Part shown: piece after piece, positions 21,746 to 64,000 of the stretch
How the letters are laid out: every line of letters begins with the position of its first letter
Position numbering within the stretch: the first letter of the stretch is position 1
Assembly: GCA_026413225.1 (NCBI GenBank)
Contig: CM048591.1
Coordinates: 39,525,803-39,589,802 of the forward strand
DNA length: 64,000 bases
Reading direction: 5' to 3'
From: Otis tarda
Lineage: Eukaryota; Chordata; Aves; Otidiformes; Otididae
The notes under the pieces: generated by a model
What the model was told of the DNA's origin: nothing
The model's database searches: none
The model's input: only the letters and a program-made list of their open reading frames with translations
Program-made: the position numbers and the translations under genes

Positions 21746-22146
21746 AGATCTACATTTTTCTATATGCAAAGCCTATTTTCTAAATATTGAAAGTTTCTGA
21801 ATTGACATGCATACAAAAAAGAAAGCTTATTGCAACAAATTATTATTCTTGATTTTGAAGGAATTAAAAGGTCACAGGTAAAAAAAATATATAGTGGAAT
21901 GTTCTCTGGACCTCATTGTGAAATAAATGAGAAACGTTACTAACACTGTACCTGGAAACTGAATGATGGTATATAATCTCAAAAAATGGATTAAAAATCT
22001 GCCTGAAGACGTGCAAGACCACAACAGTGATCGTAACTGTGATGTGATTGTAAAGTGATGTAGTGTGAAGTCCATCCCTCAGTAACAACAGAACCTGTCA
22101 CTCGGGGGTTCAATGGCAATAAGCACTCCAGGCCTGACCAGAAGGT

Positions 22147-22322
22147 AAAGCCTGTTGTGAAGGGCGTTGTCCAAGTACCTCCTTTCAAGGCACTGACAGG
22201 CACGGGGCATGGACCGGCTGGCTCTAGGGAGCCTGTTCCAGTGTCTGACCGGCCTCTTGGTAAAGAAAGGTTTCCTAATATCAAGTCTGAACCTCCTCTG
22301 ATGCAGCTTTGAACCACTGCCA
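22147..22322 (-). mobile_element. CR1: CR1 tail fragment A (unit 1)
   Basis: The plus strand shows 'ggagcctgttccagtgtctg', then 'cttggtaaagaaaggtttcc', 'taatatcaagtctgaacctc' and 'atgcagctttgaacca'. This is the antisense of the conserved CR1 region upstream of the 3' end. Translated on the minus strand it gives the familiar avian peptide RHWNRLPR. The fragment lies 3' of the RING gene. Confidence 0.85.
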
Positions 22323-22802
22323 TGCAGCCCAGCGCTGGATCGCAGCGGGGAGAGCTCAGCACCTCCCTCTCCTCTTCCTCTCCTCGATGCAGAGAGCAGC
22401 ACCGAGTCATGACTCCACGCAAGATGAGGGATTTGTGTGCTGCCGTGGCGAGGCTGTGCTGGGCAGTGCAGGCTGGTAAGGAGAGCAGAGCTCTGGGACA
22501 CAGGAGCAGAGGGTGCACTGAGGAGGCCAGGCCTGGGGTGATGAGTGGTGGGGCACGCGCTGGCCCTGGAGAGCCCCCAGCTGGAAACTTCTGCTCTGGA
22601 ACCAGCTGCAGAGGTGCAGGCCTGGATCTGGGCAGCACCTGCCTTTGTGGGGAGCAATGAAATAGTACGGGGCACACATAGAAGGACCCCTCAGCGTTAC
22701 ATGCCAGCTGTCTCAGCAAAAAAAAAACCTAAAAAAGGGTGAGGATAGCAAGGCCGCCTGCACTGTTAGTGACACTGACACTTTTTCTGTAGTTTCAATG
22801 CA
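22323..22802. other. GC-rich segment downstream of the RING gene (unit 1)
   Basis: Open frames exist on both strands (112 codons plus, about 198 codons minus) because stops are rare in GC-rich DNA. The minus frame runs straight into the CR1 tail, so it is not a convincing gene. An A run near 22718-22727 varies between units from 9 to 13 A. No function assigned. Confidence 0.45.
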
Positions 22803-22808
22803 TTTATT
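22803..22808 (-). promoter_or_regulatory. AATAAA polyadenylation signal for the RING gene (unit 1)
   Basis: Reads AATAAA on the minus strand, 369 nt beyond the CDS stop, in all units within one base of the same spacing. A GT-rich element is not obvious. Assignment to the gene rests on position and strand. Confidence 0.5.
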
Positions 22809-23171
22809 TTACTTGGATAATTGGGTTTAGGGGGCTGGGAGCCCTTGAGGGCTGGCAGATGTCCCAGCCGATGGTGTGGTCTTGTTTTGGTCATGCCCTG
22901 AGGCACCCTCCACGGTCACCGGCGTGGTGCTGATTTCTTGTTGTCTGGAGAGGCCTCAGAGCTGCCAGTCTTCCTCTTTAGGGGTCGCCGTGGCCCCCGG
23001 GGGAGCGTTTACTGCCCCAGCTGGAAGTGGAGGGCCCAGGCACAGCCTCCTGTGGCTGCACCCGGGCCTCTTCTTGCTCCGCAGAGGTGGCAATGGGAGC
23101 AGAGGGGTGGCTGCCAGGACTCCCGCCAGTGGCAGTGGGTGAGGCGCCGGGGAGCTCCTCCCCACCAGATC

Positions 23172-23924
23172 TCACAGGGCTGCCAGACAGGGCTGCGCTG
23201 GGGGCGAGACACCCTCTTGGGGAGGCAGCAGGGCTGGGAGCACCCGCGGGGCTGCCCTCCAGCCCCCGGCAGCATGGGCGTCCTGCTGGCCCAGGGGACG
23301 ACGGGCCTCTCTGCTGGGCCCTTGCACGGTGACATGTGCACGCTGTTGTGCACGTGTCACTGTGCGGTTTTGGACGGAGCCTCCCAGCATCTGGACCGGC
23401 AGCAGCTCTGCATCCACCCTGCTGTTGGTGGGGATGCCCGTGTTGGTGTTCTCTGCCACGGCTGCCTCCAGCACCCTGTTGCCAAAGAGCTCCTCCAGCT
23501 CCTGATGGACCCAGGACTGCAGGGTCTGGAAGAGCGTTGGATGGTTCTCAAAATGGCTCAACCAGTTTGGGGGCTGGAGGCCGCCCGCAGGATGCCTGGG
23601 CACCCCTTCTGCCACTCGTCCTTGCGCTGCCCCACGGCGATGGAGGTGGTGGGCGCCCTGGGGTCTGGGAGCTCCTGCGGCCTGGCGGACAATGACTGAT
23701 GATGTCCCAGGTGGTGTAATGACATGCTCCATGTAGTCATTGTCCGCCCGCACCGAGTGCAAGATGGATAGGATCCTCCTCTTGCAGAGGGGGCACTCGG
23801 GTTTGGTTTCAGCCCACCGCAAGATGCACAGATAGCAGAACTGGTGGAGGCATGGCATCACGTAGCTGACCTCCTCCCAGCTGTCCAGGCATATTGGACA
23901 GCGGTCCTTCAGCTCTGTGGCCAT
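23172..23924 (-). CDS. TOPORS-like RING-finger E3 ubiquitin ligase, short form (unit 1)
   Basis: 250-residue frame starting at ATG 23924 (MATELKDRC). Residues 9-47 form a complete C3HC4 RING: Cys9, Cys12, Cys25, His27, Cys30, Cys33, Cys44, Cys47. Ile11 and Trp37 occupy the usual E2-contact positions, with a basic Lys48 after the last Cys. The following HSVRADND (56-63) and residues 114-156 (WLSHF, LQSWVHQELEELFG) match the order of conserved blocks in TOPORS, a nuclear ubiquitin and SUMO E3 ligase. The remaining TOPORS length, including its RS-rich part, is absent. From about residue 221 the frame looks shifted, because the frame two bases over stays open, is Ser/Pro-rich and ends in basic residues. 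An upstream GTG would add three codons but the ATG is the natural start. Ubiquitin-ligase activity is inferred, not shown. Confidence 0.75.
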   Translation of the reverse strand: MATELKDRCPICLDSWEEVSYVMPCLHQFCYLCILRWAETKPECPLCKRRILSILHSVRADNDYMEHVITPPGTSSVIVRQAAGAPRPQGAHHLHRRGAAQGRVAEGVPRHPAGGLQPPNWLSHFENHPTLFQTLQSWVHQELEELFGNRVLEAAVAENTNTGIPTNSRVDAELLPVQMLGGSVQNRTVTRAQQRAHVTVQGPSREARRPLGQQDAHAAGGWRAAPRVLPALLPPQEGVSPPAQPCLAAL

Positions 23925-23943
23925 GCTCTCCACTGGCTGCGGT

Positions 23944-24467
23944 GGGCTGGGGGAGCTGGGGATGTTGAGCCGCTCCCTCTCCCTGGTGCCGCAGCAGCGG
24001 GTGTCACGCTAGAAAAGGAAGAGAGGCCACCGTCACTGGTTGGCCCGGGTAGAGGTGGAAGAAATGCCCAGGTCCCTCAAGAAGGAAGCCCTCCCAGCTC
24101 CCCGGCCAGCTCACCTCTGCTGCTGCGAGCGCACCGCCTGGGTATCCCGGCTGCCTGAACCTGGCAGGGCCGGGGAAAATCCTGCCCCGGCTCTGGGGTC
24201 GGGGCTGGGGGAGCTGGGGATGTTGAGCCGCTCCCTCTCCCTGGTGCCGCAGCAGCAGGTGTCACGCTAGAAAAGGAAGAGAGGCCACCATCACTGGTTG
24301 GCCCGGGTGGGGGTGGAAGAAATGCCCAGGTCCCTCAAGAAGGAAACCCTCCCAGCTCCCCGGCCAGCTCACCTCTGCTGCTGCGAGCGCACCTCCTGGG
24401 GATCCCGGCTGCCTGAACCTGGCAGGGCCGGGAAAAATCCTCCAGTCCTGCACTGGCTCTGGGGTCG
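23944..24467 (-). repeat. Duplicated 258-bp exon-intron leader module (unit 1)
   Basis: Two tandem copies (23944-24201 and 24202 to about 24467) differ at few positions. On the minus strand each holds a donor AG/GTGAGC, a 106-nt interval, and a pyrimidine-rich acceptor ending ttccttttctag. Predicted introns are 24009-24114 and 24267-24372, and the exon between them is 152 nt (24115-24266). These would splice a 5' leader onto the RING exon. The G run before the start codon is 5 G here, which closes the frame upstream of the ATG. Confidence 0.7.
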
Positions 24468-25059
24468 CACACGGAGAGCTGCAACGAGCAACTCCCCGAG
24501 CACGACACCAGCACCGACGGCCTCACTCAGCACTCCAGCCTCGCCAACTGCTCAGCTGGAGTCTGGGCACGAGCCCACCGCGTGAGACTCAGCACCCGCT
24601 CATAGGCACTGAGGGTGTCCTGGTCACAATCCATTGCTCAGGGATGTTCCAAGCTGTTGCTAGGTGACATCAGAGTCCTTCACCTGGACACGTCTCCGTC
24701 CATCTCTTGGTGACAACAAAACCTGTTGCCAAAATTGGGGGCTCGATGGCATCAGAACCCATCACTTGGGCAAATCGCTGTCCACTGGTCAGGGACATCA
24801 CAACAGGCTGTCCTCATCCACAGCGCTTGCCCTGGCAGCACTGCTGCCCCGGCACACACGTCTGGGCTTACCAGAATGCCACTGCCCACTCCATCCCCTC
24901 CATCTCTTGTCTTGTTCTCGGCATCGGTGTTTCACGCCGGTCACCGAGGCCTCGGCCCTGTCTTCTTGGGGCCCCGTCATGTCACTCTGGCTGTGGCAGG
25001 TGTCTCCAGGCACATATGGCAAGAGGGCTCACTGGCCAACACAGCCTTGACGTCTTCAT
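24468..25059. other. GC-rich region upstream of the RING gene, probable promoter side (unit 1)
   Basis: No protein recognised, although frames of 112-146 codons are open on the plus strand. The minus strand would contain the transcription start. A weak RFX X-box-like site (gttgctaggtgac, 24656-24668) and a MYB-type core (ccaactg, about 24529) are present. The phrase 'gacaacaaaacctgt' at about 24711 echoes 'taacaacagaacctgt' at 22083, so the two flanks of the gene share ancestry. Confidence 0.4.
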
Positions 25060-25150
25060 TTTAAAGTTAAAGCCTGTTCTGAATGGCATTTTCCAAATGC
25101 CTCTTTTTAATGCGCTGATAGGCACGAAGCATCGACCAGGACTCTAGGAC
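25060..25150 (-). mobile_element. CR1: CR1-like tail fragment B (unit 1)
   Basis: The pattern 'aaagcctgttctgaatggca', 'ttccaaatgcctc', 'gctgataggcacgaagcatc', 'gactctagg' aligns by eye with the left part of fragment A at 22147-22230. It stops before the conserved 'gcctgttccagtg' block. An older, more diverged copy on the other side of the gene. Confidence 0.65.
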
Positions 25151-25429
25151 CACTTCAGGTCACATTATAGGTGATGTTAAAAAAAAAAAAGTTTCTCAAA
25201 TTAATTATAAGATTGTAGAGGCTATTCGGCACAGTTCCCCTTGTACTTCGTCTTCCAAAGAACACTGATTTTGGAAGAAAACGTTGCACTGTTACTTCAG
25301 CCTCAGTGAGAAAGTAAATGAGAAGGAGTGTCAAAGGAACCCAGCTATGTAGACTCATACTAAGAGCAGACTTGGAGAATCAGCAATCAGCTAACCTACA
25401 GCTGGAGTTCGTACCACTGGTCACCACCC

Positions 25430-26000
25430 TGTAGGCCTAGCCATTCAGCAAGTTTTCAGTCCACCTCACTCTCTGTTCTACTTCATCAGCTTCTCTACAA
25501 GGATCTTACAGCACACAGTGTCAAAAGCCTTACTGAAATCTAGACAGTATCCACTGTCCTCCCCTCGTCTGCCAGGCCAGTCATTTAATCGGAGACATTT
25601 ATTAAGTTGATCAACCATGACTCCCCCTTGCTGAACCATTTTGACTATGCCTGATGATCTTTGTGTCCTTCATGAGCCTGGAAATGGTTTCCAGGACTAG
25701 CTGCTCCATCACCTCCCCAGAGACTGAGGTGAGACTGACTAGCCTGTTGGTCCTTGGCCAGTTCTCCTTTCTGCCCTTCTTGGAGATAGGAGTCGCTTTT
25801 CTCAGGTCCTCAGGTACTACTCCCAGTGACCATGATTGATAAAAGATTGTTGAGAGCGGCCTCACAATGACGTCAGACAGCTCCCTCAGCCTTCAGGAGT
25901 GCATCCTATCAGTGCTGATGGACTTCTGTGTGACCAGTTTGCTTAAGCATTTATTCAGTGACCTGGTCCTCTTCAACCAAGGGCACGTCTTCATTTCTCC
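25430..26000 (-). pseudogene. CR1: CR1 LINE reverse-transcriptase fragment (unit 1)
   Basis: Minus-strand translation gives recognisable avian CR1 RT pieces in order: TQKSISTDRMH, PLSTIFYQSWSLGVVPEDLR, VSLTSVSGEVMEQLVLETI, and further 3' the degenerate 'LLTLC' region. These correspond to the N-terminal fingers and start of the palm of the RT. Stops and frameshifts on both sides of an open stretch at 25611-25865 show it is dead. It is carried passively by the tandem unit. Confidence 0.88.
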
Positions 26001-28331
26001 AGACTTTCCCTCTGGGACGTGGAATTCCTGAAGGCCTGAGACTATCAAGAGTAACACAAACCCAATTAAAACAGTCTCTCTGTATTGTGAATACTGACTG
26101 AGCAGTGAGTGGAACACCCACTCCTTCATGCCGTAAATGTTCTGCCATAGGCAATACATAGATAGCACTTCAAATGTATTTACATATGCTTTTGAATAAC
26201 CCTCCAAAATGTTATTAGATGTACATATTCAAAAGGTGGTTAGCTGGTTGCTCTTAATTTCCTTATTTTGGTACCTTTCGTACAGATACGCAAGAGAACA
26301 GAAGGTGATTTTAGTACGGATTTGAGCTTATTTGAGGTCTCACACAAGTGAAAGACTATTGCACAGCGCTGTACCACCAGGACGGTATGTGAGATGACCT
26401 TCGTGCCACTCTATTTCTCTCTCAGAAAGAACTGATGTTTCTTTCTTGAGGAGGGGCGTAAGTTGCTCTGCATCAATATTTTTGCATGTCTTGATCTACT
26501 TATTTTAAGTGGCAGTCCGCTCTCTACTCACCTGCTGGTAGGTCCCATGTTTACTCTGACATTACCGATAGTTCATTTAAATCTCTCCTCATAGTTGTTT
26601 CTGAGCAGTCTGTTCAAGCGTTTCTCTCCTCCATGCCACTGTCAGCAGTGCAGACTGTTTCATTATTTGATACCGTAGCCCAAAACATGCAGAAGGTGCT
26701 GGAACCATATTAGGAACCGATTTGGAAAGAAGTTAATTGTGGTGCAGGAATGTATACTGAGTCTGTGACAGGAAACTATTGTATCAGAAGGCTTTATCCT
26801 GAGGAGGTAGAGCTCTAAAATATTCCTGAAATGATAAATTATGCTCTGATGTATATTGTAGCGTTTTTTATAAGAAAGGTTGTAACTTTCACAGTGGTTG
26901 TGCTCAATTTGTTTAATAATCCGACAGCTCTAGCAGCAGAAGGTTTTTATCTTTCATTTAAAAAACACGTACTTGGAGCACGTGCCTCGGTCGGTTCTGG
27001 GATCTGGTCTTAATTACTTAGGAAATCTTTTACAGAAAGACAGAAGTAATTCTAGACTATTTAACAAGCAGGTTTCACTGAAGCAAAATGCCTTTATGTG
27101 ACGCACTGTGTCTTGTCACAGGCCTGGAGAGCCATTTACTGCCAACTGCAAGCTGCTGTGCTGGGGTTCCTGTTCTGTGCAGCCGTAGTTGCAGCAGAGG
27201 ACTGCACAGTGTTTAGACCAGGTCTGTGATTTACTTATCCTGAGAGGTGGTCCCCACTTACTTCCAAGTCGAGAACAAATATTAGGCAGCCTCTCTACTG
27301 CCTGCCTCTGTGTGCTGCTCTTCTTGGCTCATTTATTAGGGAATACTTCTGGGCTGCAAGAGAGATCGTCTGTCTCGACAGACTCTTTACAGGGTGGCTT
27401 TTTTCAAAGCAGAAGAGAAGGCTTTATTAGGATGGGAGCTGCAGGAAGCAAGTGTGTTAGAGATGTGTATTTTGATAGGGTTAGGAGCAGGGGTTTTTTT
27501 TTCTGTCAGTTTGTAAGAGGATAACTGGGACTTCTCTGAGCTTGTAGGTGTAAGTAAGACCTTAGGTTTAACTGCCTGCTCGTTGATGTTTCACCTCTGA
27601 ATCTATTGTCTCTTGTTCTGGTTCCTTTCTTTGAGATTATATTGTATTTATCATAGTCTAATTCGGTTTCCAGTAAAGTATCAAGTGTAAAGATATGGTG
27701 AAGTAAGACTGAAACGTGACCTTTGTGCGGCACCTGAATTCCGGTAGGACTCAACCTGCTGTTTCTGCTGCCTGCCCTTTCCCGCTGTCCTGCCTGAGAC
27801 AAGCAGGAGTGTCGTTTTCACGGAGGCAGCAGTACTGTGAATATGTATATTGTTGGCTGTGAAGAAGAAGTGGTGATGTTAAATATTGATTTGTGTCAGG
27901 CTGGTATCTTGAGAAAGAAAAGCACGCTCCCAGAATTCAAAGAAAAATATTGTCATAATCAAGGGTTCAGGCCATAGATTTCAGGCTCTGTCAGGGAAAA
28001 GTGTTTGTATTCAAGGACTGGTGTGGACCTGTGTCCACCAGGATTGTGATAGCATGAAATGAAGTCTGTCTTTATGTAGTTTTGGGTGTAGTCTACCCAG
28101 AAAAAAATATTTATAAGGAATAGCTGTTGGCTGACTTTTCTACAAAAACCAGTGAGCAAATACAGGTGACAGTAAACAGGTAATTCCAGACTGTCAGATG
28201 TCTGCTTGCATGTTTTCAGTGCTGGAGTGTGCCGCTGCCTGCTTCTTTAGTTGTCCTTTTCCATACGTGAGTGTCATAGAGGTACTGTTTCACCTGTGGT
28301 GGCATCTCCTCCTGCTCTTCTGGGGAAAACG
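26001..28331. other. AT-rich filler of the tandem unit, no gene recognised (unit 1)
   Basis: No protein family or transposon recognised on either strand. A G/T run near 27491 (4 G then 9 T here) varies between units. Absent from the left flank, so it was part of the segment that became the repeat unit. The same holds for the equivalent stretch of each later unit. Confidence 0.5.
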
Positions 28332-28346
28332 AGAGAGAATCTCTCT
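28332..28346. repeat. 15-bp palindrome at the unit 1/unit 2 junction
   Basis: agagaga, a single a, then tctctct. It lies five bases before the start of the next unit and recurs at every internal junction (for example near 34729, 41122, 47520, 53913 and 60307). It is absent at the left edge of the array. Confidence 0.85.
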
Positions 28347-28539
28347 AAAATCTGAATGACGGTATATAATCTCAAAAAATGGATTAAGAATCTGCCTGAA
28401 GACGTGCAAGACCACAACAGTGATCGTAACTGTGATGTGATTGTAAAGTGATGTAGTGTGAAGTCCATCCCTCAGTAACAACAGAACCTGTCACTCGGGG
28501 GTTCAATGGCAATAAGCACTCCAGGCCTGACCAGAAGGT

Positions 28540-28715
28540 AAAGCCTGTTGTGAAGGGCGTTGTCCAAGTACCTCCTTTCAAGGCACTGACAGGCACGGGG
28601 CATGGACCGGCTGGCTCTAGGGAGCCTGTTCCAGTGTCTGACCGGCCTCTTGGTAAAGAAAGGTTTCCTAATATCAAGTCTGAACCTCCTCTGATGCAGC
28701 TTTGAACCACTGCCA
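28540..28715 (-). mobile_element. CR1: CR1 tail fragment A (unit 2)
   Basis: Same insertion and same ends as in unit 1, so it was present before amplification. Confidence 0.85.
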
Positions 28716-29198
28716 TGCAGCCCAGCGCTGGATCGCAGCGGGGAGAGCTCAGCACCTCCCTCTCCTCTTCCTCTCCTCGATGCAGAGAGCAGCACCGAGT
28801 CATGACTCCACGCAAGATGAGGGATTTGTGTGCTGCCGTGGCGAGGCTGTGCTGGGCAGTGCAGGCTGGTAAGGAGAGCAGAGCTCTGGGACACAGGAGC
28901 AGAGGGTGCACTGAGGAGGCCAGGCCTGGGGTGATGAGTGGTGGGGCACGCGCTGGCCCTGGAGAGCCCCCAGCTGGAAACTTCTGCTCTGGAACCAGCT
29001 GCAGAGGTGCAGGCCTGGATCTGGGCAGCACCTGCCTTTGTGGGGAGCAATGAAATAGTACGGGGCACACATAGAAGGACCCCTCAGCGTTACATGCCAG
29101 CTGTCTCAGCAAAAAAAAAAAAACCTAAAAAAGGGTGAGGATAGCAAGGCCGCCTGCACTGTTAGTGACACTGACACTTTTTCTGTAGTTTCAATGCA

Positions 29199-29204
29199 TT
29201 TATT
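29199..29204 (-). promoter_or_regulatory. AATAAA polyadenylation signal (unit 2)
   Basis: 369 nt beyond the CDS stop, minus strand. Confidence 0.5.
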
Positions 29205-29567
29205 TTACTTGGATAATTGGGTTTAGGGGGCTGGGAGCCCTTGAGGGCTGGCAGATGTCCCAGCCGATGGTGTGGTCTTGTTTTGGTCATGCCCTGAGGC
29301 ACCCTCCACGGTCACCGGCGTGGTGCTGATTTCTTGTTGTCTGGAGAGGCCTCAGAGCTGCCAGTCTTCCTCTTTAGGGGTCGCCGTGGCCCCCCGGGGA
29401 GCGTTTACTGCCCCAGCTGGAAGTGGAGGGCCCAGGCACAGCCTCCTGTGGCTGCACCCGGGCCTCTTCTTGCTCCGCAGAGGTGGCAATGGGAGCAGAG
29501 GGGTGGCTGCCAGGACTCCCGCCAGTGGCAGTGGGTGAGGCGCCGGGGAGCTCCTCCCCACCAGATC

Positions 29568-30320
29568 TCACAGGGCTGCCAGACAGGGCTGCGCTGGGGG
29601 CGAGACACCCTCTTGGGGAGGCAGCAGGGCTGGGAGCACCCGCGGGGCTGCCCTCCAGCCCCCGGCAGCATGGGCGTCCTGCTGGCCCAGGGGACGACGG
29701 GCCTCTCTGCTGGGCCCTTGCACGGTGACATGTGCACGCTGTTGTGCACGTGTCACTGTGCGGTTTTGGACGGAGCCTCCCAGCATCTGGACCGGCAGCA
29801 GCTCTGCATCCACCCTGCTGTTGGTGGGGATGCCCGTGTTGGTGTTCTCTGCCACGGCTGCCTCCAGCACCCTGTTGCCAAAGAGCTCCTCCAGCTCCTG
29901 ATGGACCCAGGACTGCAGGGTCTGGAAGAGCGTTGGATGGTTCTCAAAATGGCTCAACCAGTTTGGGGGCTGGAGGCCGCCCGCAGGATGCCTGGGCACC
30001 CCTTCTGCCACTCGTCCTTGCGCTGCCCCACGGCGATGGAGGTGGTGGGCGCCCTGGGGTCTGGGAGCTCCTGCGGCCTGGCGGACAATGACTGATGATG
30101 TCCCAGGTGGTGTAATGACATGCTCCATGTAGTCATTGTCCGCCCGCACCGAGTGCAAGATGGATAGGATCCTCCTCTTGCAGAGGGGGCACTCGGGTTT
30201 GGTTTCAGCCCACCGCAAGATGCACAGATAGCAGAACTGGTGGAGGCATGGCATCACGTAGCTGACCTCCTCCCAGCTGTCCAGGCATATTGGACAGCGG
30301 TCCTTCAGCTCTGTGGCCAT
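29568..30320 (-). CDS. TOPORS-like RING-finger E3 ligase, short form (unit 2)
   Basis: Encodes the same 250 residues as unit 1, with all eight zinc ligands kept. Here the G run upstream of the ATG has 6 G, so the minus-strand frame stays open from the predicted splice acceptor at 30406 through the ATG. It adds an Ala/Pro-rich stretch (TPAAAAPGRG, PPSPPQPVES). A spliced transcript could therefore carry an N-terminal extension in this copy but not in unit 1. Downstream, the C/G run at about 29391-29400 is 6 C plus 4 G, which disrupts the alternative C-terminal frame. Confidence 0.75.
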   Translation of the reverse strand: MATELKDRCPICLDSWEEVSYVMPCLHQFCYLCILRWAETKPECPLCKRRILSILHSVRADNDYMEHVITPPGTSSVIVRQAAGAPRPQGAHHLHRRGAAQGRVAEGVPRHPAGGLQPPNWLSHFENHPTLFQTLQSWVHQELEELFGNRVLEAAVAENTNTGIPTNSRVDAELLPVQMLGGSVQNRTVTRAQQRAHVTVQGPSREARRPLGQQDAHAAGGWRAAPRVLPALLPPQEGVSPPAQPCLAAL

Positions 30321-30339
30321 GCTCTCCACTGGCTGCGGT

Positions 30340-30864
30340 GGGCTGGGGGGAGCTGGGGATGTTGAGCCGCTCCCTCTCCCTGGTGCCGCAGCAGCGGGTG
30401 TCACGCTAGAAAAGGAAGAGAGGCCACCGTCACTGGTTGGCCCGGGTAGAGGTGGAAGAAATGCCCAGGTCCCTCAAGAAGGAAGCCCTCCCAGCTCCCC
30501 GGCCAGCTCACCTCTGCTGCTGCGAGCGCACCGCCTGGGTATCCCGGCTGCCTGAACCTGGCAGGGCCGGGGAAAATCCTGCCCCGGCTCTGGGGTCGGG
30601 GCTGGGGGAGCTGGGGATGTTGAGCCGCTCCCTCTCCCTGGTGCCGCAGCAGCAGGTGTCACGCTAGAAAAGGAAGAGAGGCCACCATCACTGGTTGGCC
30701 CGGGTGGGGGTGGAAGAAATGCCCAGGTCCCTCAAGAAGGAAACCCTCCCAGCTCCCCGGCCAGCTCACCTCTGCTGCTGCGAGCGCACCTCCTGGGGAT
30801 CCCGGCTGCCTGAACCTGGCAGGGCCGGGAAAAATCCTCCAGTCCTGCACTGGCTCTGGGGTCG
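30340..30864 (-). repeat. Duplicated exon-intron leader module (unit 2)
   Basis: Predicted introns 30406-30511 and 30664-30769, each 106 nt, with the donor and acceptor of unit 1 unchanged. Confidence 0.7.
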
Positions 30865-31456
30865 CACACGGAGAGCTGCAACGAGCAACTCCCCGAGCAC
30901 GACACCAGCACCGACGGCCTCACTCAGCACTCCAGCCTCGCCAACTGCTCAGCTGGAGTCTGGGCACGAGCCCACCGCGTGAGACTCAGCACCCGCTCAT
31001 AGGCACTGAGGGTGTCCTGGTCACAATCCATTGCTCAGGGATGTTCCAAGCTGTTGCTAGGTGACATCAGAGTCCTTCACCTGGACACGTCTCCGTCCAT
31101 CTCTTGGTGACAACAAAACCTGTTGCCAAAATTGGGGGCTCGATGGCATCAGAACCCATCACTTGGGCAAATCGCTGTCCACTGGTCAGGGACATCACAA
31201 CAGGCTGTCCTCATCCACAGCGCTTGCCCTGGCAGCACTGCTGCCCCGGCACACACGTCTGGGCTTACCAGAATGCCACTGCCCACTCCATCCCCTCCAT
31301 CTCTTGTCTTGTTCTCGGCATCGGTGTTTCACGCCGGTCACCGAGGCCTCGGCCCTGTCTTCTTGGGGCCCCGTCATGTCACTCTGGCTGTGGCAGGTGT
31401 CTCCAGGCACATATGGCAAGAGGGCTCACTGGCCAACACAGCCTTGACGTCTTCAT

Positions 31457-31547
31457 TTTAAAGTTAAAGCCTGTTCTGAATGGCATTTTCCAAATGCCTC
31501 TTTTTAATGCGCTGATAGGCACGAAGCATCGACCAGGACTCTAGGAC
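31457..31547 (-). mobile_element. CR1: CR1-like tail fragment B (unit 2)
   Basis: Identical in position to the unit 1 copy, followed by a 12-A run. Confidence 0.65.
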
Positions 31548-31826
31548 CACTTCAGGTCACATTATAGGTGATGTTAAAAAAAAAAAAGTTTCTCAAATTA
31601 ATTATAAGATTGTAGAGGCTATTCGGCACAGTTCCCCTTGTACTTCGTCTTCCAAAGAACACTGATTTTGGAAGAAAACGTTGCACTGTTACTTCAGCCT
31701 CAGTGAGAAAGTAAATGAGAAGGAGTGTCAAAGGAACCCAGCTATGTAGACTCATACTAAGAGCAGACTTGGAGAATCAGCAATCAGCTAACCTACAGCT
31801 GGAGTTCGTACCACTGGTCACCACCC

Positions 31827-36715: not shown

Positions 36716-36734
36716 GCTCTCCACTGGCTGCGGT

Positions 36735-49505: not shown

Positions 49506-49524
49506 GCTCTCCACTGGCTGCGGT

Positions 49525-54120: not shown

Positions 54121-54296
54121 AAAGCCTGTTGTGAAGGGCGTTGTCCAAGTACCTCCTTTCAAGGCACTGACAGGCACGGGGCATGGACCGGCTGGCTCTA
54201 GGGAGCCTGTTCCAGTGTCTGACCGGCCTCTTGGTAAAGAAAGGTTTCCTAATATCAAGTCTGAACCTCCTCTGATGCAGCTTTGAACCACTGCCA
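54121..54296 (-). mobile_element. CR1: CR1 tail fragment A (unit 6)
   Basis: Same fragment as in unit 1. Confidence 0.85.
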
Positions 54297-54777
54297 TGCA
54301 GCCCAGCGCTGGATCGCAGCGGGGAGAGCTCAGCACCTCCCTCTCCTCTTCCTCTCCTCGATGCAGAGAGCAGCACCGAGTCATGACTCCACGCAAGATG
54401 AGGGATTTGTGTGCTGCCGTGGCGAGGCTGTGCTGGGCAGTGCAGGCTGGTAAGGAGAGCAGAGCTCTGGGACACAGGAGCAGAGGGTGCACTGAGGAGG
54501 CCAGGCCTGGGGTGATGAGTGGTGGGGCACGCGCTGGCCCTGGAGAGCCCCCAGCTGGAAACTTCTGCTCTGGAACCAGCTGCAGAGGTGCAGGCCTGGA
54601 TCTGGGCAGCACCTGCCTTTGTGGGGAGCAATGAAATAGTACGGGGCACACATAGAAGGACCCCTCAGCGTTACATGCCAGCTGTCTCAGCAAAAAAAAA
54701 AACCTAAAAAAGGGTGAGGATAGCAAGGCCGCCTGCACTGTTAGTGACACTGACACTTTTTCTGTAGTTTCAATGCA

Positions 54778-54783
54778 TTTATT
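54778..54783 (-). promoter_or_regulatory. AATAAA polyadenylation signal (unit 6)
   Basis: 369 nt beyond the CDS stop, minus strand. Confidence 0.5.
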
Positions 54784-55146
54784 TTACTTGGATAATTGGG
54801 TTTGGGGGCTGGGAGCCCTTGAGGGCTGGCAGATGTCCCAGCCGATGGTGTGGTCTTGTTTTGGTCATGCCCTGAGGCACCCTCCACGGTCACCGGCGTG
54901 GTGCTGATTTCTTGTTGTCTGGAGAGGCCTCAGAGCTGCCAGTCTTCCTCTTTAGGGGTCGCCGTGGCCCCCCGGGGGAGCGTTTACTGCCCCAGCTGGA
55001 AGTGGAGGGCCCAGGCACAGCCTCCTGTGGCTGCACCCGGGCCTCTTCTTGCTCCGCAGAGGTGGCAATGGGAGCAGAGGGGTGGCTGCCAGGACTCCCG
55101 CCAGTGGCAGTGGGTGAGGCGCCGGGGAGCTCCTCCCCACCAGATC

Positions 55147-55899
55147 TCACAGGGCTGCCAGACAGGGCTGCACTGGGGGCGAGACACCCTCTTGGGGAGG
55201 CAGCAGGGCTGGGAGCACCCGCGGGGCTGCCCTCCAGCCCCCGGCAGCATGGGCGTCCTGCTGGCCCAGGGGACGACGGGCCTCTCTGCTGGGCCCTTGC
55301 ACGGTGACATGTGCACGCTGTTGTGCACGTGTCACTGTGCGGTTTTGGACGGAGCCTCCCAGCATCTGGACCGGCAGCAGCTCTGCATCCACCCTGCTGT
55401 TGGTGGGGATGCCCGTGTTGGTGTTCTCTGCCACGGCTGCCTCCAGCACCCTGTTGCCAAAGAGCTCCTCCAGCTCCTGATGGACCCAGGACTGCAGGGT
55501 CTGGAAGAGCGTTGGATGGTTCTCAAAATGGCTCAACCAGTTTGGGGGCTGGAGGCCGCCCGCAGGATGCCTGGGCACCCCTTCTGCCACTCGTCCTTGC
55601 GCTGCCCCACGGCGATGGAGGTGGTGGGCGCCCTGGGGTCTGGGAGCTCCTGCGGCCTGGCGGACAATGACTGATGATGTCCCAGGTGGTGTAATGACAT
55701 GCTCCATGTAGTCATTGTCCGCCCGCACCGAGTGCAAGATGGATAGGATCCTCCTCTTGCAGAGGGGGCACTCGGGTTTGGTTTCAGCCCACCGCAAGAT
55801 GCACAGATAGCAGAACTGGTGGAGGCATGGCATCACGTAGCTGACCTCCTCCCAGCTGTCCAGGCATATTGGACAGCGGTCCTTCAGCTCTGTGGCCAT
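55147..55899 (-). CDS. TOPORS-like RING-finger E3 ligase, short form (unit 6)
   Basis: Ala243Val as in unit 5, otherwise identical to unit 1, including all zinc ligands. The upstream G run is 5 G (frame closed above the ATG). The alternative tail frame is intact to 54890. The sharing of Ala243Val by adjacent units fits local duplication or conversion between neighbours. Confidence 0.75.
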   Translation of the reverse strand: MATELKDRCPICLDSWEEVSYVMPCLHQFCYLCILRWAETKPECPLCKRRILSILHSVRADNDYMEHVITPPGTSSVIVRQAAGAPRPQGAHHLHRRGAAQGRVAEGVPRHPAGGLQPPNWLSHFENHPTLFQTLQSWVHQELEELFGNRVLEAAVAENTNTGIPTNSRVDAELLPVQMLGGSVQNRTVTRAQQRAHVTVQGPSREARRPLGQQDAHAAGGWRAAPRVLPALLPPQEGVSPPVQPCLAAL

Positions 55900-55918
55900 G
55901 CTCTCCACTGGCTGCGGT

Positions 55919-56443
55919 GGGCTGGGGGAGCTGGGGATGTTGAGCCGCTCCCTCTCCCTGGTGCCGCAGCAGTGGGTGTCACGCTAGAAAAGGAAGAGAG
56001 GCCACCGTCACTGGTTGGCCCGGGTAGAGGTGGAAGAAATGCCCAGGTCCCTCAAGAAGGAAGCCCTCCCAGCTCCCCGGCCAGCTCACCTCTGCTGCTG
56101 CGAGCGCACCGCCTGGGTATCCCGGCTGCCTGAACCTGGCAGGGCCGGGGAAAATCCTGCCCCGGCTCTGGGGTCGGGGCTGGGGGGAGCTGGGGATGTT
56201 GAGCCGCTCCCTCTCCCTGGTGCCGCAGCAGCAGGTGTCACGCTAGAAAAGGAAGAGAGGCCACCATCACTGGTTGGCCCGGGTGGAGGTGGAAGAAATG
56301 CCCAGGTCCCTCAAGAAGGAAACCCTCCCAGCTCCCCGGCCAGCTCACCTCTGCTGCTGCGAGCGCACCTCCTGGGGATCCCGGCTGCCTGAACCTGGCA
56401 GGGCCGGGAAAAATCCTCCAGTCCTGCACTGGCTCTGGGGTCG
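55919..56443 (-). repeat. Duplicated exon-intron leader module (unit 6)
   Basis: Predicted introns 55984-56089 and 56243-56348. A private 'cagcagtgggtg' occurs at about 55968, where others read 'cagcagcgggtg'. Confidence 0.7.
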
Positions 56444-57035
56444 CACACGGAGAGCTGCAACGAGCAACTCCCCGAGCACGACACCAGCACCGACGGCCTC
56501 ACTCAGCACTCCAGCCTCGCCAACTGCTCAGCTGGAGTCTGGGCACGAGCCCACCGCGTGAGACTCAGCACCCGCTCGTAGGCACTGAGGGTGTCCTGGT
56601 CACAATCCATTGCTCAGGGATGTTCCAAGCTGTTGCTAGGTGACATCAGAGTCCTTCACCTGGACACGTCTCCGTCCATCTCTTGGTGACAACAAAACCT
56701 GTTGCCAAAATTGGGGGCTCGATGGCATCAGAACCCATCACTTGGGCAAATCGCTGTCCACTGGTCAGGGACATCACAACAGGCTGTCCTCATCCACAGC
56801 GCTTGCCCTGGCAGCACTGCTGCCCCGGCACACACGTCTGGGCTTACCAGAATGCCACTGCCCACTCCATCCCCTCCATCTCTTGTCTTGTTCTCGGCAT
56901 CGGTGTTTCACGCCGGTCACCGAGGCCTCGGCCCTGTCTTCTTGGGGCCCCGTCATGTCACTCTGGCTGTGGCAGGTGTCTCCAGGCACATATGGCAAGA
57001 GGGCTCACTGGCCAACACAGCCTTGACGTCTTCAT

Positions 57036-57126
57036 TTTAAAGTTAAAGCCTGTTCTGAATGGCATTTTCCAAATGCCTCTTTTTAATGCGCTGATAGGCA
57101 CGAAGCATCGACCAGGACTCTAGGAC
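57036..57126 (-). mobile_element. CR1: CR1-like tail fragment B (unit 6)
   Basis: Unchanged from unit 1. Confidence 0.65.
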
Positions 57127-57404
57127 CACTTCAGGTCACATTATAGGTGATGTTAAAAAAAAAAAGTTTCTCAAATTAATTATAAGATTGTAGAGGCTAT
57201 TCGGCACAGTTCCCCTTGTACTTCGTCTTCCAAAGAACACTGATTTTGGAAGAAAACGTTGCACTGTTACTTCAGCCTCAGTGAGAAAGTAAATGAGAAG
57301 GAGTGTCAAAGGAACCCAGCTATGTAGACTCATACTAAGAGGAGACTTGGAGAATCAGCAATCAGCTAACCTACAGCTGGAGTTCGTACCACTGGTCACC
57401 ACCC

Positions 57405-57975
57405 TGTAGGCCTAGCCATTCAGCAAGTTTTCAGTCCACCTCACTCTCTGTTCTACTTCATCAGCTTCTCTACAAGGATCTTACAGCACACAGTGTCAAA
57501 AGCCTTACTGAAATCTAGACAGTATCCACTGTCCTCCCCTCGTCTGCCAGGCCAGTCATTTAATCGGAGACATTTATTAAGTTGATCAACCATGACTCCC
57601 CCTTGCTGAACCATTTTGACTATGCCTGATGATCTTTGTGTCCTTCATGAGCCTGGAAATGGTTTCCAGGACTAGCTGCTCCATCACCTCCCCAGAGACT
57701 GAGGTGAGACTGACTAGCCTGTTGGTCCTTGGCCAGTTCTCCTTTCTGCCCTTCTTGGAGATAGGAGTCGCTTTTCTCAGGTCCTCAGGTACTACTCCCA
57801 GTGACCATGATTGATAAAAGATTGTTGAGAGCGGCCTCACAATGACGTCAGACAGCTCCCTCAGCCTTCAGGAGTGCATCCTATCAGTGCTGATGGACTT
57901 CTGTGTGACCAGTTTGCTTAAGCATTTATTCAGTGACCTGGTCCTCTTCAACCAAGGGCACGTCTTCATTTCTCC
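57405..57975 (-). pseudogene. CR1: CR1 reverse-transcriptase fragment (unit 6)
   Basis: Longest open part 57586-57840. Same breaks as in unit 1. Confidence 0.88.
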
Positions 57976-60514
57976 AGACTTTCCCTCTGGGACGTGGAAT
58001 TCCTGAAGGCCTGAGACTATCAAGAGTAACACAAACCCAATTAAAACAGTCTCTCTGTATTGTGAATACTGACTGAGCAGTGAGTGGAACACCCACTCCT
58101 TCATGCCGTAAATGTTCTGCCATAGGCAATACATAGATAGCACTTCAAATGTATTTACATATGCTTTTGAATAACCCTCCAAAATGTTATTAGATGTACA
58201 TATTCAAAAGGTGGTTAGCTGGTTGCTCTTAATTTCCTTATTTTGGTACCTTTCGTACAGATACGCAAGAGAACAGAAGGTGATTTTAGTACGGATTTGA
58301 GCTTATTTGAGGTCTCACACAAGTGAAAGACTATTGCACAGCGCTGTACCACCAGGACGGTATGTGAGATGACCTTCGTGCCACTCTATTTCTCTCTCAG
58401 AAAGAACTGATGTTTCTTTCTTGAGGAGGGGCGTAAGTTGCTCTGCATCAATATTTTTGCATGTCTTGATCTACTTATTTTAAGTGGCAGTCCGCTCTCT
58501 ACTCACCTGCTGGTAGGTCCCATGTTTACTCTGACATTACCGATAGTTCATTTAAATCTCTCCTCATAGTTGTTTCTGAGCAGTCTGTTCAAGCGTTTCT
58601 CTCCTCCATGCCACTGTCAGCAGTGCAGACTGTTTCATTATTTGATACCGTAGCCCAAAACATGCAGAAGGTGCTGGAACCATATTAGGAACCGATTTGG
58701 AAAGAAGTTAATTGTGGTGCAGGAATGTATACTGAGTCTGTGACAGGAAACTATTGTATCAGAAGGCTTTATCCTGAGGAGGTAGAGCTCTAAAATATTC
58801 CTGAAATGATAAATTATGCTCTGATGTATATTGTAGCATTTTTTATAAGAAAGGTTGTAACTTTCACAGTGGTTGTGCTCAATTTGTTTAATAATCCGAC
58901 AGCTCTAGCAGCAGAAGGTTTTTATCTTTCATTTAAAAAACACGTACTTGGAGCACGTGCCTCGGTCGGTTCTGGGATCTGGTCTTAATTACTTAGGAAA
59001 TCTTTTACAGAAAGACAGAAGTAATTCTAGACTATTTAACAAGCAGGTTTCACTGAAGCAAAATGCCTTTATGTGACGCACTGTGTCTTGTCACAGGCCT
59101 GGAGAGCCATTTACTGCCAACTGCAAGCTGCTGTGCTGGGGTTCCTGTTCTGTGCAGCCGTAGTTGCAGCAGAGGACTGCACAGTGTTTAGACCAGGTCT
59201 GTGATTTACTTATCCTGAGAGGTGGTCCCCACTTACTTCCAAGTCGAGAACAAATATTAGGCAGCCTCTCTACTGCCTGCCTCTGTGTGCTGCTCTTCTT
59301 GGCTCATTTATTAGGGAATACTTCTGGGCTGCAAGAGAGATCGTCTGTCTCGACAGACTCTTTACAGGGTGGCTTTTTTCAAAGCAGAAGAGAAGGCTTT
59401 ATTAGGATGGGAGCTGCAGGAAGCAAGTGTGTTAGAGATGTGTATTTTGATAGGGTTAGGAGCAGGGTTTTTTTTTTCTGTCAGTTTGTAAGAGGATAAC
59501 TGGGACTTCTCTGAGCTTGTAGGTGTAAGTAAGACCTTAGGTTTAACTGCCTGCTCGTTGATGTTTCACCTCTGAATCTATTGTCTCTTGTTCTGGTTCC
59601 TTTCTTTGAGATTATATTGTATTTATCATAGTCTAATTCGGTTTCCAGTAAAGTATCAAGTGTAAAGATATGGTGAAGTAAGACTGAAACGTGACCTTTG
59701 TGCGGCACCTGAATTCCGGTAGGACTCAACCTGCTGTTTCTGCTGCCTGCCCTTTCCCGCTGTCCTGCCTGAGACAAGCAGGAGTGTCGTTTTCACGGAG
59801 GCAGCAGTACTGTGAATATGTATATTGTTGGCTGTGAAGAAGAAGTGGTGATGTTAAATATTGATTTGTGTCAGGCTGGTATCTTGAGAAAGAAAAGCAC
59901 GCTCCCAGAATTCAAAGAAAAATATTGTCATAATCAAGGGTTCAGGCCATAGATTTCAGGCTCTGTCAGGGAAAAGTGTTTGTATTCAAGGACTGGTGTG
60001 GACCTGTGTCCACCAGGATTGTGATAGCATGAAATGAAGTCTGTCTTTATGTAGTTTTGGGTGTAGTCTACCCAGAAAAAAATATTTATAAGGAATAGCT
60101 GTTGGCTGACTTTTCTACAAAAACCAGTGAGCAAATACAGGTGACAGTAAACAGGTAATTCCAGACTGTCAGATGTCTGCTTGCATGTTTTCAGTGCTGG
60201 AGTGTGCCGCTGCCTGCTTCTTTAGTTGTCCTTTTCCATACGTGAGTGTCATAGAGGTACTGTTTCACCTGTGGTGGCATCTCCTCCTGCTCTTCTGGGG
60301 AAAACGAGAGAGAATCTCTCTAAAATCTGAATGACGGTATATAATCTCAAAAAATGGATTAAGAATCTGCCTGAAGACGTGCAAGACCACAACAGTGATC
60401 GTAACTGTGATGTGATTGTAAAGTGATGTAGTGTGAAGTCCATCCCTCAGTAACAACAGAACCTGTCACTCGGGGGTTCAATGGCAATAAGCACTCCAGG
60501 CCTGACCAGAAGGT

Positions 60515-60690
60515 AAAGCCTGTTGTGAAGGGCGTTGTCCAAGTACCTCCTTTCAAGGCACTGACAGGCACGGGGCATGGACCGGCTGGCTCTAGGGAGC
60601 CTGTTCCAGTGTCTGACCGGCCTCTTGGTAAAGAAAGGTTTCCTAATATCAAGTCTGAACCTCCTCTGATGCAGCTTTGAACCACTGCCA
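60515..60690 (-). mobile_element. CR1: CR1 tail fragment A (unit 7)
   Basis: Same fragment as in unit 1. Confidence 0.85.
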
Positions 60691-61172
60691 TGCAGCCCAG
60701 CGCTGGATCGCAGCGGGGAGAGCTCAGCACCTCCCTCTCCTCTTCCTCTCCTCGATGCAGAGAGCAGCACCGAGTCATGACTCCACGCAAGATGAGGGAT
60801 TTGTGTGCTGCCGTGGCGAGGCTGTGCTGGGCAGTGCAGGCTGGTAAGGAGAGCAGAGCTCTGGGACACAGGAGCAGAGGGTGCACTGAGGAGGCCAGGC
60901 CTGGGGTGATGAGTGGTGGGGCACGCGCTGGCCCTGGAGAGCCCCCAGCTGGAAACTTCTGCTCTGGAACCAGCTGCAGAGGTGCAGGCCTGGATCTGGG
61001 CAGCACCTGCCTTTGTGGGGAGCAATGAAATAGTACGGGGCACACATAGAAGGACCCCTCAGCGTTACATGCCAGCTGTCTCAGCAAAAAAAAAAAACCT
61101 AAAAAAGGGTGAGGATAGCAAGGCCGCCTGCACTGTTAGTGACACTGACACTTTTTCTGTAGTTTCAATGCA

Positions 61173-61178
61173 TTTATT
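61173..61178 (-). promoter_or_regulatory. AATAAA polyadenylation signal (unit 7)
   Basis: 369 nt beyond the CDS stop, minus strand. Confidence 0.5.
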
Positions 61179-61541
61179 TTACTTGGATAATTGGGTTTGG
61201 GGGCTGGGAGCCCTTGAGGGCTGGCAGATGTCCCAGCCGATGGTGTGGTCTTGTTTTGGTCATGCCCTGAGGCACCCTCCACGGTCACCGGCGTGGTGCT
61301 GATTTCTTGTTGTCTGGAGAGGCCTCAGAGCTGCCAGTCTTCCTCTTTAGGGGTCGCTGTGGCCCCCCGGGGGAGCGTTTACTGCCCCAGCTGGAAGTGG
61401 AGGGCCCAGGCACAGCCTCCTGTGGCTGCACCCGGGCCTCTTCTTGCTCCGCAGAGGTGGCAATGGGAGCAGAGGGGTGGCTGCCAGGACTCCCGCCAGT
61501 GGCAGTGGGTGAGGCGCCGGGGAGCTCCTCCCCACCAGGTC

Positions 61542-62294
61542 TCACAGGGCTGCCAGACAGGGCTGCGCTGGGGGCGAGACACCCTCTTGGGGAGGCAGCA
61601 GGGCTGGGAGCACCCGCGGGGCTGCCCTCCAGCCCCCAGCAGCATGGGCGTCCTGCTGGCCCAGGGGACGACGGGCCTCTCTGCTGGGCCCTTGCACGGT
61701 GACATGTGCACGCTGTTGTGCACGTGTCACTGTGCGGTTTTGGACGGAGCCTCCCAGCATCTGGACCGGCAGCAGCTCTGCATCCACCCTGCTGTTGGTG
61801 GGGATGCCCGTGTTGGTGTTCTCTGCCACGGCTGCCTCCAGCACCCTGTTGCCAAAGAGCTCCTCCAGCTCCTGATGGACCCAGGACTGCAGGGTCTGGA
61901 AGAGCGTTGGATGGTTCTCAAAATGGCTCAACCAGTTTGGGGGCTGGAGGCCGCCCGCAGGATGCCTGGGCACCCCTTCTGCCACTCGTCCTTGCGCTGC
62001 CCCACGGCGATGGAGGTGGTGGGCGCCCTGGGGTCTGGGAGCTCCTGCGGCCTGGCGGACAATGACTGATGATGTCCCAGGTGGTGTAATGACATGCTCC
62101 ATGTAGTCATTGTCCGCCCGCACCGAGTGCAAGATGGATAGGATCCTCCTCTTGCAGAGGGGGCACTCGGGTTTGGTTTCAGCCCACCGCAAGATGCACA
62201 GATAGCAGAACTGGTGGAGGCATGGCATCACGTAGCTGACCTCCTCCCAGCTGTCCAGGCATATTGGACAGCGGTCCTTCAGCTCTGTGGCCAT
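61542..62294 (-). CDS. TOPORS-like RING-finger E3 ligase, short form (unit 7)
   Basis: Protein identical to unit 1, with a silent change at about 61638. The frame is open upstream to the acceptor at 62380, as in units 2 and 3. The alternative tail frame is intact to 61285, with one Ser to Pro change just 3' of the RING-frame stop. With unit 3 it is one of two copies combining the open N-terminal extension and the unbroken tail frame. Confidence 0.75.
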   Translation of the reverse strand: MATELKDRCPICLDSWEEVSYVMPCLHQFCYLCILRWAETKPECPLCKRRILSILHSVRADNDYMEHVITPPGTSSVIVRQAAGAPRPQGAHHLHRRGAAQGRVAEGVPRHPAGGLQPPNWLSHFENHPTLFQTLQSWVHQELEELFGNRVLEAAVAENTNTGIPTNSRVDAELLPVQMLGGSVQNRTVTRAQQRAHVTVQGPSREARRPLGQQDAHAAGGWRAAPRVLPALLPPQEGVSPPAQPCLAAL

Positions 62295-62313
62295 GCTCTC
62301 CACTGGCTGCGGT

Positions 62314-62838
62314 GGGCTGGGGGGAGCTGGGGATGTTGAGCCGCTCCCTCTCCCTGGTGCCGCAGCAGCGGGTGTCACGCTAGAAAAGGAAGAGAGGCCA
62401 CCGTCACTGGTTGGCCCGGGTAGAGGTGGAAGAAATGCCCAGGTCCCTCAAGAAGGAAGCCCTCCCAGCTCCCCGGCCAGCTCACCTCTGCTGCTGCGAG
62501 CGCACCGCCTGGGTATCCCGGCTGCCTGAACCTGGCAGGGCCGGGGAAAATCCTGCCCCGGCTCTGGGGTCGGGGCTGGGGGAGCTGGGGATGTTGAGCC
62601 GCTCCCTCTCCCTGGTGCCGCAGCAGCAGGTGTCACGCTAGAAAAGGAAGAGAGGCCACCATCACTGGTTGGCCCGGGTGGGGGTGGAAGAAATGCCCAG
62701 GTCCCTCAAGAAGGAAACCCTCCCAGCTCCCCGGCCAGCTCACCTCTGCTGCTGCGAGCGCACCTCCTGGGGATCCCGGCTGCCTGAACCTGGCAGGGCC
62801 GGGAAAAATCCTCCAGTCCTGCACTGGCTCTGGGGTCG
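62314..62838 (-). repeat. Duplicated exon-intron leader module (unit 7)
   Basis: Predicted introns 62380-62485 and 62638-62743. Both copies match units 1 and 2. Confidence 0.7.
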
Positions 62839-63430
62839 CACACGGAGAGCTGCAACGAGCAACTCCCCGAGCACGACACCAGCACCGACGGCCTCACTCA
62901 GCACTCCAGCCTCGCCAACTGCTCAGCTGGAGTCTGGGCACGAGCCCACCGCGTGAGACTCAGCACCCGCTCATAGGCACTGAGGGTGTCCTGGTCACAA
63001 TCCATTGCTCAGGGATGTTCCAAGCTGTTGCTAGGTGACATCAGAGTCCTTCACCTGGACACGTCTCCGTCCATCTCTTGGTGACAACAAAACCTGTTGC
63101 CAAAATTGGGGGCTCGATGGCATCAGAACCCATCACTTGGGCAAATCGCTGTCCACTGGTCAGGGACATCACAACAGGCTGTCCTCATCCACAGCGCTTG
63201 CCCTGGCAGCACTGCTGCCCCGGCACACACGTCTGGGCTTACCAGAATGCCACTGCCCACTCCATCCCCTCCATCTCTTGTCTTGTTCTCGGCATCGGTG
63301 TTTCACGCCGGTCACCGAGGCCTCGGCCCTGTCTTCTTGGGGCCCCGTCATGTCACTCTGGCTGTGGCAGGTGTCTCCAGGCACATATGGCAAGAGGGCT
63401 CACTGGCCAACACAGCCTTGACGTCTTCAT

Positions 63431-63521
63431 TTTAAAGTTAAAGCCTGTTCTGAATGGCATTTTCCAAATGCCTCTTTTTAATGCGCTGATAGGCACGAAG
63501 CATCGACCAGGACTCTAGGAC
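63431..63521 (-). mobile_element. CR1: CR1-like tail fragment B (unit 7)
   Basis: Unchanged from unit 1. Confidence 0.65.
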
Positions 63522-63800
63522 CACTTCAGGTCACATTATAGGTGATGTTAAAAAAAAAAAAGTTTCTCAAATTAATTATAAGATTGTAGAGGCTATTCGG
63601 CACAGTTCCCCTTGTACTTCGTCTTCCAAAGAACACTGATTTTGGAAGAAAACGTTGCACTGTTACTTCAGCCTCAGTGAGAAAGTAAATGAGAAGGAGT
63701 GTCAAAGGAACCCAGCTATGTAGACTCATACTAAGAGGAGACTTGGAGAATCAGCAATCAGCTAACCTACAGCTGGAGTTCGTACCACTGGTCACCACCC

Positions 63801-64000
63801 TGTAGGCCTAGCCATTCAGCAAGTTTTCAGTCCACCTCACTCTCTGTTCTACTTCATCAGCTTCTCTACAAGGATCTTACAGCACACAGTGTCAAAAGCC
63901 TTACTGAAATCTAGACAGTATCCACTGTCCTCCCCTCGTCTGCCAGGCCAGTCATTTAATCGGAGACATTTATTAAGTTGATCAACCATGACTCCCCCTT
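63801..64000 (-). pseudogene. CR1: CR1 reverse-transcriptase fragment, cut by the window end (unit 7)
   Basis: Only the 3' third of the fragment is in the window. Confidence 0.8.

Follow-up and report, generated by a model that had tools for sequence, protein, structure and literature searches.

The 64,000 nucleotides of Otis tarda DNA analysed here (assembly GCA_026413225.1, contig CM048591.1, positions 39,525,803 to 39,589,802 of the forward strand; hereafter the window) end in a tandem array of long, nearly identical units. We consider it likely that this is a macrosatellite-like bird array, in which each unit carries one spliced, tail-shortened gene for a Topors-like RING E3 ubiquitin ligase and in which the units are homogenised by exchange. 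Macrosatellites differ in copy number among individuals and usually have tens of copies. To our knowledge, coding macrosatellites are few and are best studied in mammals.

The tandem array and variation between its units

Self-BLASTN of the window showed that positions 21956 to 64000 form one direct repeat of about 42 kb, which runs to the window end. The repeat holds at least six full units of about 6.39 kb arranged head to tail, followed by about 3.68 kb of a seventh. In the unit alignment, the anchor positions were 21951, 28346, 34743, 41136, 47534, 53927, and 60321, with anchor-to-anchor distances of 6395, 6397, 6393, 6398, 6393, and 6394 bp. Unit-to-unit identity, calculated with gaps left out, was 99.35-99.89% in 21 pairwise comparisons. 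A model's reading of the letters alone (the original prediction) had proposed a head-to-tail array of about 6.395-kb units, six full and one partial, that are more than 99 percent alike; the unit spacings of 6393-6398 bp and the identities agree with this. The array itself also stood where it had been placed, but its start moved from 21959 to 21956, the edge given by self-comparison. Near-identical multi-kilobase units in head-to-tail order, the hallmark of a macrosatellite, are thus present, and on the evidence of its sequence the array is genuine. Its parts are as follows:

21956..64000, no strand assigned: tandem array (self-BLASTN and unit alignment)
21956..28347, minus strand: unit 1, at the array edge (self-BLASTN; analysis of single-nucleotide polymorphisms, SNPs)
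28348..34745, minus strand: unit 2, the reference unit (self-BLASTN)
34746..41137, minus strand: unit 3 (self-BLASTN)
41138..47536, minus strand: unit 4 (self-BLASTN)
47537..53928, minus strand: unit 5 (self-BLASTN; SNP analysis)
53929..60322, minus strand: unit 6 (self-BLASTN)
60323..64000, minus strand: unit 7, ended by the window end, with its coding part and both introns inside the window

The units differ at 41 SNP columns, 33 of which are private to one unit and eight of which are shared. The shared sites form 28 pairs, of which 16 showed all four combinations; with site 21958 at the edge and site 27493 at a homopolymer border left out, 5 of 15 pairs still did. Exchange between units would explain this mosaic. 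Unit 5 has 18 private SNPs, and 16 of these fall within an 833-bp stretch (24018-24850 in unit-1 coordinates) upstream of the coding part. This tract suggests conversion from a diverged unit that is located somewhere else in the array or in the genome and probably lies outside the units seen. Unit 4 has seven private SNPs. Unit 1 has only two, at 21967 and 21995. Both are no more than 40 bp from the edge, a place at which homogenisation would be expected to fail. The mosaic of shared SNPs, the unit 5 tract, and the edge divergence of unit 1 are the marks of units evolving in concert. The pattern of mosaic and private SNPs also speaks against a duplicate made by the assembly.

The gene in each unit and its relatives

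One minus-strand frame of 250 codons, beginning MATELKDRCPICLD, is found in each of the seven units. The units encode three protein variants, since H95R is present in unit 5 and A243V in units 5 and 6. The coding frames are:

23172..23924, minus strand: unit 1, 250-amino-acid Topors-like RING protein
29568..30320, minus strand: unit 2, including the Pfam RING match
35963..36715, minus strand: unit 3
42357..43109, minus strand: unit 4
48753..49505, minus strand: unit 5 (H95R, A243V)
55147..55899, minus strand: unit 6 (A243V)
61542..62294, minus strand: unit 7

The minus-strand C3HC4 RING of the original prediction was recovered in the unit 2 protein by Pfam (PF13923, E 5e-12). Its eight zinc ligands (C9, C12, C25, H27, C30, C33, C44, and C47) are invariant in the window protein and 36 relatives. 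The predicted RING fold resembles RNF8-, RING1B/BMI1-, and TRIM21-type RING E3s, several of which have been solved with an E2. The putative activity of the protein is, by this fold similarity, E2-dependent ubiquitin transfer, which would be possible in principle. The best sequence match among solved structures was the equine herpesvirus 1 RING (E 3e-18), placed above every cellular RING in the table; the same viral RING ranked 15th in the fold comparison. Model confidence for the middle domain was mostly below 60, and its fold was not used.

Each unit also has two 106-nt GT-AG introns in its 5' leader, with donor and acceptor motifs in all seven units, so the 106-nt introns predicted earlier were found again. 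Intron 2 stems from a 258-bp tandem duplication that took an exon end and the intron along, leaving a chimeric exon of 152 nt (chimera read by hand). The exon junction in the 428-amino-acid goose and duck relatives P0106 and P0118 reads RSQQQSVTPAAAAP and RSEQQSVTPAAAAP; this, together with the alignment of P0106 to unit sequence before and after the junction, supports the predicted splice sites. The start codon has an A at -3 and a G at +4 in the one unit printed, and an AATAAA signal sits 1116 or 1117 bases past the start codon in all seven. The stop of the 250-amino-acid frame lies in the last exon of the model; therefore, nonsense-mediated decay would not be expected. For unit 2, the signals are:

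30664..30769, minus strand: 5' intron 1, 106 nt, GT-AG (motifs; same junction in the 428-amino-acid duck and goose proteins)
30406..30511, minus strand: 5' intron 2, 106 nt (from the 258-bp tandem duplication; chimera read by hand)
29199..29204, minus strand: AATAAA poly(A) signal

An N-terminal extension like that of the 428-amino-acid duck and goose proteins was considered and rejected, as the frame is shifted by the chimeric exon (read by hand) and the pieces upstream are spread over several frames. Ten further open frames in the unit and the flank gave no Pfam match above the cut-off. Two further observations were made in unit 2. A 74-nt direct repeat, 80% identical between 28535-28608 and 31461-31534, flanks the gene on both sides; we take it to resemble a fragment of a long interspersed element (CR1). 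A 93-amino-acid open frame at 32008-32289 on the minus strand, in which Pfam finds nothing, is presumably like a CR1 reverse transcriptase fragment.

To place the gene, 5.8 billion proteins were searched at E <= 1e-3, which gave 158 homologs, the best 120 of which were listed. Of the 120 listed, 91 are named with an organism, and by eye every one of these is from a bird, in line with the avian origin that had been proposed from the letters. The names among those listed are mainly Topors-like, TOPRS ligase, and uncharacterised (LOC), with few others. The closest of the matches listed has 64% identity, and P0013 reaches 67% in the alignment with relatives. In a midpoint-rooted tree, the window gene falls in a group of 14 (itself and 13 others) with support of 0.99. 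This clade contains stork, shearwater, eagle, hawk, crane, ibis, and tit proteins and one unnamed protein. The family is multi-copy in several birds; one crane, Grus japonensis, gives its name to 14 of the 120 clusters listed. The RING, the exon junction, and the protein start are common to the family and the window gene, whose middle part aligns with the helical middle domain of the family, and by sequence the gene is a member of the already annotated avian family "E3 ubiquitin-protein ligase Topors-like."

The original prediction had also called the protein TOPORS-like, and profile-profile comparison bears this out: the bird family profile aligns with TOPORS over the RING and the second domain with a probability of 99.9. 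The window protein shares 46% identity with penguin TOPORS over 69 residues of the RING (E 2e-23); no significant pairwise alignment to TOPORS was obtained for its middle part. Another family member, P0054, aligns with the second domain of TOPORS (E 3e-7). By eye, TOPORS proteins are annotated with PF26084, which we take to be this second domain, and all 120 listed homologs lack that annotation. The absence of PF26084 was given up as evidence; the missing match is uninformative because the Pfam copy misses PF26084 even in a genuine penguin TOPORS (P0197).

TOPORS, a vertebrate E3 of about 1000 amino acids, has the same RING type as the window protein, but its long C-terminal part has no counterpart in the bird family, and the window frame has 250 codons. 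According to the available part of one source, TOPORS both ubiquitinates and sumoylates p53, with the RING needed for ubiquitination and optional for sumoylation (PMC7916862). In birds, the accessible parts of two further sources list chicken TOPORS on chromosome Z (PMC1876622) and include TOPORS in the gene lists of a brain study (PMC11439032).

Tail loss, coding constraint, and the left flank

The clade relatives P0001-P0004 are 327-346 amino acids long and have a Ser/Pro-rich tail with a basic stretch at or near its end. All seven window copies leave the family frame near residue 219 and end at 250 amino acids without this tail. The tail frames were read in unit 2, and the run length at each change was compared in all seven units. 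In tblastn of unit 2 with P0001, the frame -1 match extends from 30320 to 29532, is poor past about 29661, and crosses a stop. Frame -3 takes over at 29661-29377 with 57% identity to P0001, followed by frame -2 at 29398-29321 with P0001 (to 29315 with P0002 and P0003). What is left of the tail is thus:

29315..29661, minus strand: remains of the family tail in unit 2, stop-free in frames -3 and -2 (tblastn with P0001, P0002, and P0003)

At the first frame change, the run is equally long in every one of the seven units. The second change hangs on a one-base length difference that separates units 1, 2, and 4 from units 3, 5, 6, and 7. Because the matched tail stretches contain no stop, the tail may have been lost recently relative to the age of the family. 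With a crude motif, the basic tail is kept in 95 of the 120 listed relatives; 25 fail it, at least three of them wrongly by eye. Flycatcher and cowbird proteins P0026 and P0038 likewise lack a basic tail. The window protein's own last residues were found in none of the 120 listed proteins except for a weak match to P0014 (E 0.57). The Ser/Pro-rich tail with its basic motif, characteristic of the avian family, therefore lies outside the frame in the window copies. The frame had been described as intact. This holds for the RING and the middle part but not for the whole gene, which is frameshifted and truncated at the C-terminus in each of the seven copies.

Constraint on the rest of the protein was examined at conserved sites, defined as those where at least 80% of the other sequences agree, in a comparison set of 106 other sequences. 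Of the 38 such sites in residues 1-72, the window protein differs at none, and of the 24 in residues 73-218, it differs at eight (Fisher p 0.0002). The median of the other 106 sequences is two changes per part, and nine of them have at least eight in the middle part. Eight clade members that were tested have 6-12 changes of 24 in the middle (8/19 in P0013) and one to three in the RING part. A divergent middle part is therefore a trait of the clade and no sign of decay, and an "eroding middle domain" was dropped as evidence of decay. The ratio of RING to middle divergence was 0.24-0.45 against 11 near relatives, where the 55 pairs among these relatives have a median of 0.31 (0.10-0.77). These ratios suggest that the RING has been constrained for most of the lineage.

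Within the array, 4 of the 41 SNPs are in the 753-bp coding part, and two of them change an amino acid. Per kb, there are 3.6 SNPs in the 3' flank, 10.8 in the 3' untranslated region, 5.3 in the coding part, 22.7 in the leader and introns (most of them from unit 5), and 4.2 in the rest, or 6.4 overall. These densities, which have little power, give no clear sign of current constraint. DNA of relatives that would allow a ratio of nonsynonymous to synonymous change was sought in one scan of viral contigs, and none was found there.

The left flank (1-21955) has no similarity to the unit at E 1e-3 and no further family copy at E 1e-2 in tblastn with the 120 proteins. Its average content of guanine plus cytosine (GC) is 37%, against 52% in unit 2. 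At the edge, the final kb of flank has 35% GC and the first kb of array sequence 54%. Two arms of 106 nt at 20399-20504 and 21640-21745, which are 98% identical, form an inverted repeat. Its right arm stops about 210 bp before the array edge, and the repeat might be the mark of a template switch near the junction. ARAGORN calls a tRNA-Tyr at 5940-6034 on the minus strand that has no Rfam support at the gathering score and is probably a pseudogene or a chance call. Rfam gave no RNA family at its gathering score.

Origin of the array and known parallels

The history that we favour would begin with a paralogue that had already lost its tail frame and was then amplified head to tail, so that tail loss would precede amplification. 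Unequal exchange and gene conversion would hold the units near-identical. If transcribed, each unit would give an mRNA with a two-intron 5' leader that encodes a RING ligase of 250 amino acids, without the family tail and with the divergent middle of the clade. Such a product could in principle recruit an E2, and its substrate choice and location would probably be altered. The amplification itself would be mainly mutational, the concerted evolution of a repeat, rather than selected for dosage. Exchange as the source of the mosaic, the order of tail loss and amplification, transcription, ligase activity, and the cause of the amplification are what we infer, whereas the array, the identity of its units, their mosaic variation, the family relationship, the conserved RING, and the lost tail are seen in the sequence.

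Several points weigh against this history. The RING/middle contrast is not special to the window gene, as the eight clade members are alike in this, and the conserved RING may reflect past constraint only, should the gene have died a short time ago. Since sequence is exchanged between units, their seven equal frames amount to one witness; they are not independent, and seven intact frames were set aside as proof of selection. The frame changes fall at short G/C runs, all 12 inter-unit gap columns are at homopolymers, and a consensus assembly error shared by the units at the frame changes retains some probability.

Another possible explanation, somewhat less probable than even, is that the founder was a pseudogene when it was amplified and that the 250-amino-acid frame is a leftover in a non-coding satellite with a gene fossil. 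The frame change and tail loss in each copy would fit this, as would the second frame change that differs between units and the coding SNPs (4 in 753 bp, 5.3 per kb, with two amino-acid changes, against 6.4 per kb in the whole unit). Yet no conserved RING site of the 38 has changed, despite a terminal branch about 2.5 times the median, and splice motifs and the poly(A) signal persist in all seven units, along with the good start context of the unit printed. Tailed clade members have 6-12 of 24 middle sites changed, so the 8 of 24 seen here mark no decay. Because the changed middle domain is common to the clade, our estimate for a dead array was lowered slightly.

A selected amplification, in which the array would provide a RING-only Topors-like ligase at high dose, possibly in the germline or in immune tissue, is unlikely. 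The RING and gene signals are intact in every unit, and other birds also have several copies of the family (with Grus japonensis in 14 of 120 listed clusters). In addition, a chicken Topors-like gene appears in a table of changed liver genes in the available part of one study (PMC7563548), and a gene named topors was measured in duck embryonic gonads according to the accessible part of another (PMC9643717). However, neither the chicken nor the duck transcript comes from the array gene, and what was measured in the duck may be TOPORS itself. The tail is gone from all copies, and no clear coding constraint is seen among the units. The earlier suggestion of selection for dosage was not upheld, since 5.3 SNPs per kb in the coding part against 6.4 in the whole unit is no clear depletion, and neither dosage selection nor a germline role of the array is supported. 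A more specific proposal, which we regard as improbable, is that a tail-less, RING-centred TOPORS derivative is made in bulk as a counterpart of RS447/USP17. Having lost its own targeting parts, it would compete with or regulate the parental Topors-like ligases in a dosage-dependent way, within a single tissue or stage.

An assembly artefact, whether a falsely repeated unit, an incorrect join at 21956, or frame changes made by polishing, is improbable. The 12 of 12 gap columns at homopolymers and the GC jump at the edge (35% to 54%) would fit it, but the units have distinct SNPs in blocks not expected from copied reads, both private SNPs of unit 1 are at the outer edge, and the run at the residue-219 frame change is equally long in 7/7 units.

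The human macrosatellite D4Z4 has a kilobase unit with one gene, DUX4, in each; this is a homeobox gene with a disease link. D4Z4 would be like the window array in carrying a gene per kilobase unit and unlike it in that gene being of the homeobox type. The closest parallel is the human megasatellite RS447, whose USP17 (DUB-3) gene also places an open reading frame (ORF) of the ubiquitin system in a multi-kilobase tandem unit; the original prediction had drawn this parallel, and the available part of the RS447 report agrees with it (PMC2874809). RS447 encodes a deubiquitinase, whereas a ligase is predicted here. That part of the report gives a unit of 4746 bp, an estimated 20-103 copies (at least six full units are seen here), and an intact ORF in 20 of 23 chromosome-4 copies, and its authors suggest that the gene sits in a variable repeat because the region is unstable, more than because of selection (PMC2874809). 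The chicken Z-macrosatellite, likewise a bird macrosatellite, is described as having transcription units on lampbrush loops at the chromosome end in the accessible part of its source (PMC7397634). Among the papers listed in the literature searched, no description was found of the avian Topors-like family as a family or of such an array.

The most useful new facts are that all copies share the tail loss, that the RING is fully conserved, and that the units vary in a mosaic fashion. The array shows that one altered version of a gene can come to occupy every unit seen. A ligase array in a bird, set beside a deubiquitinase array in humans, would allow a comparison of why genes of the ubiquitin system enter such repeats.

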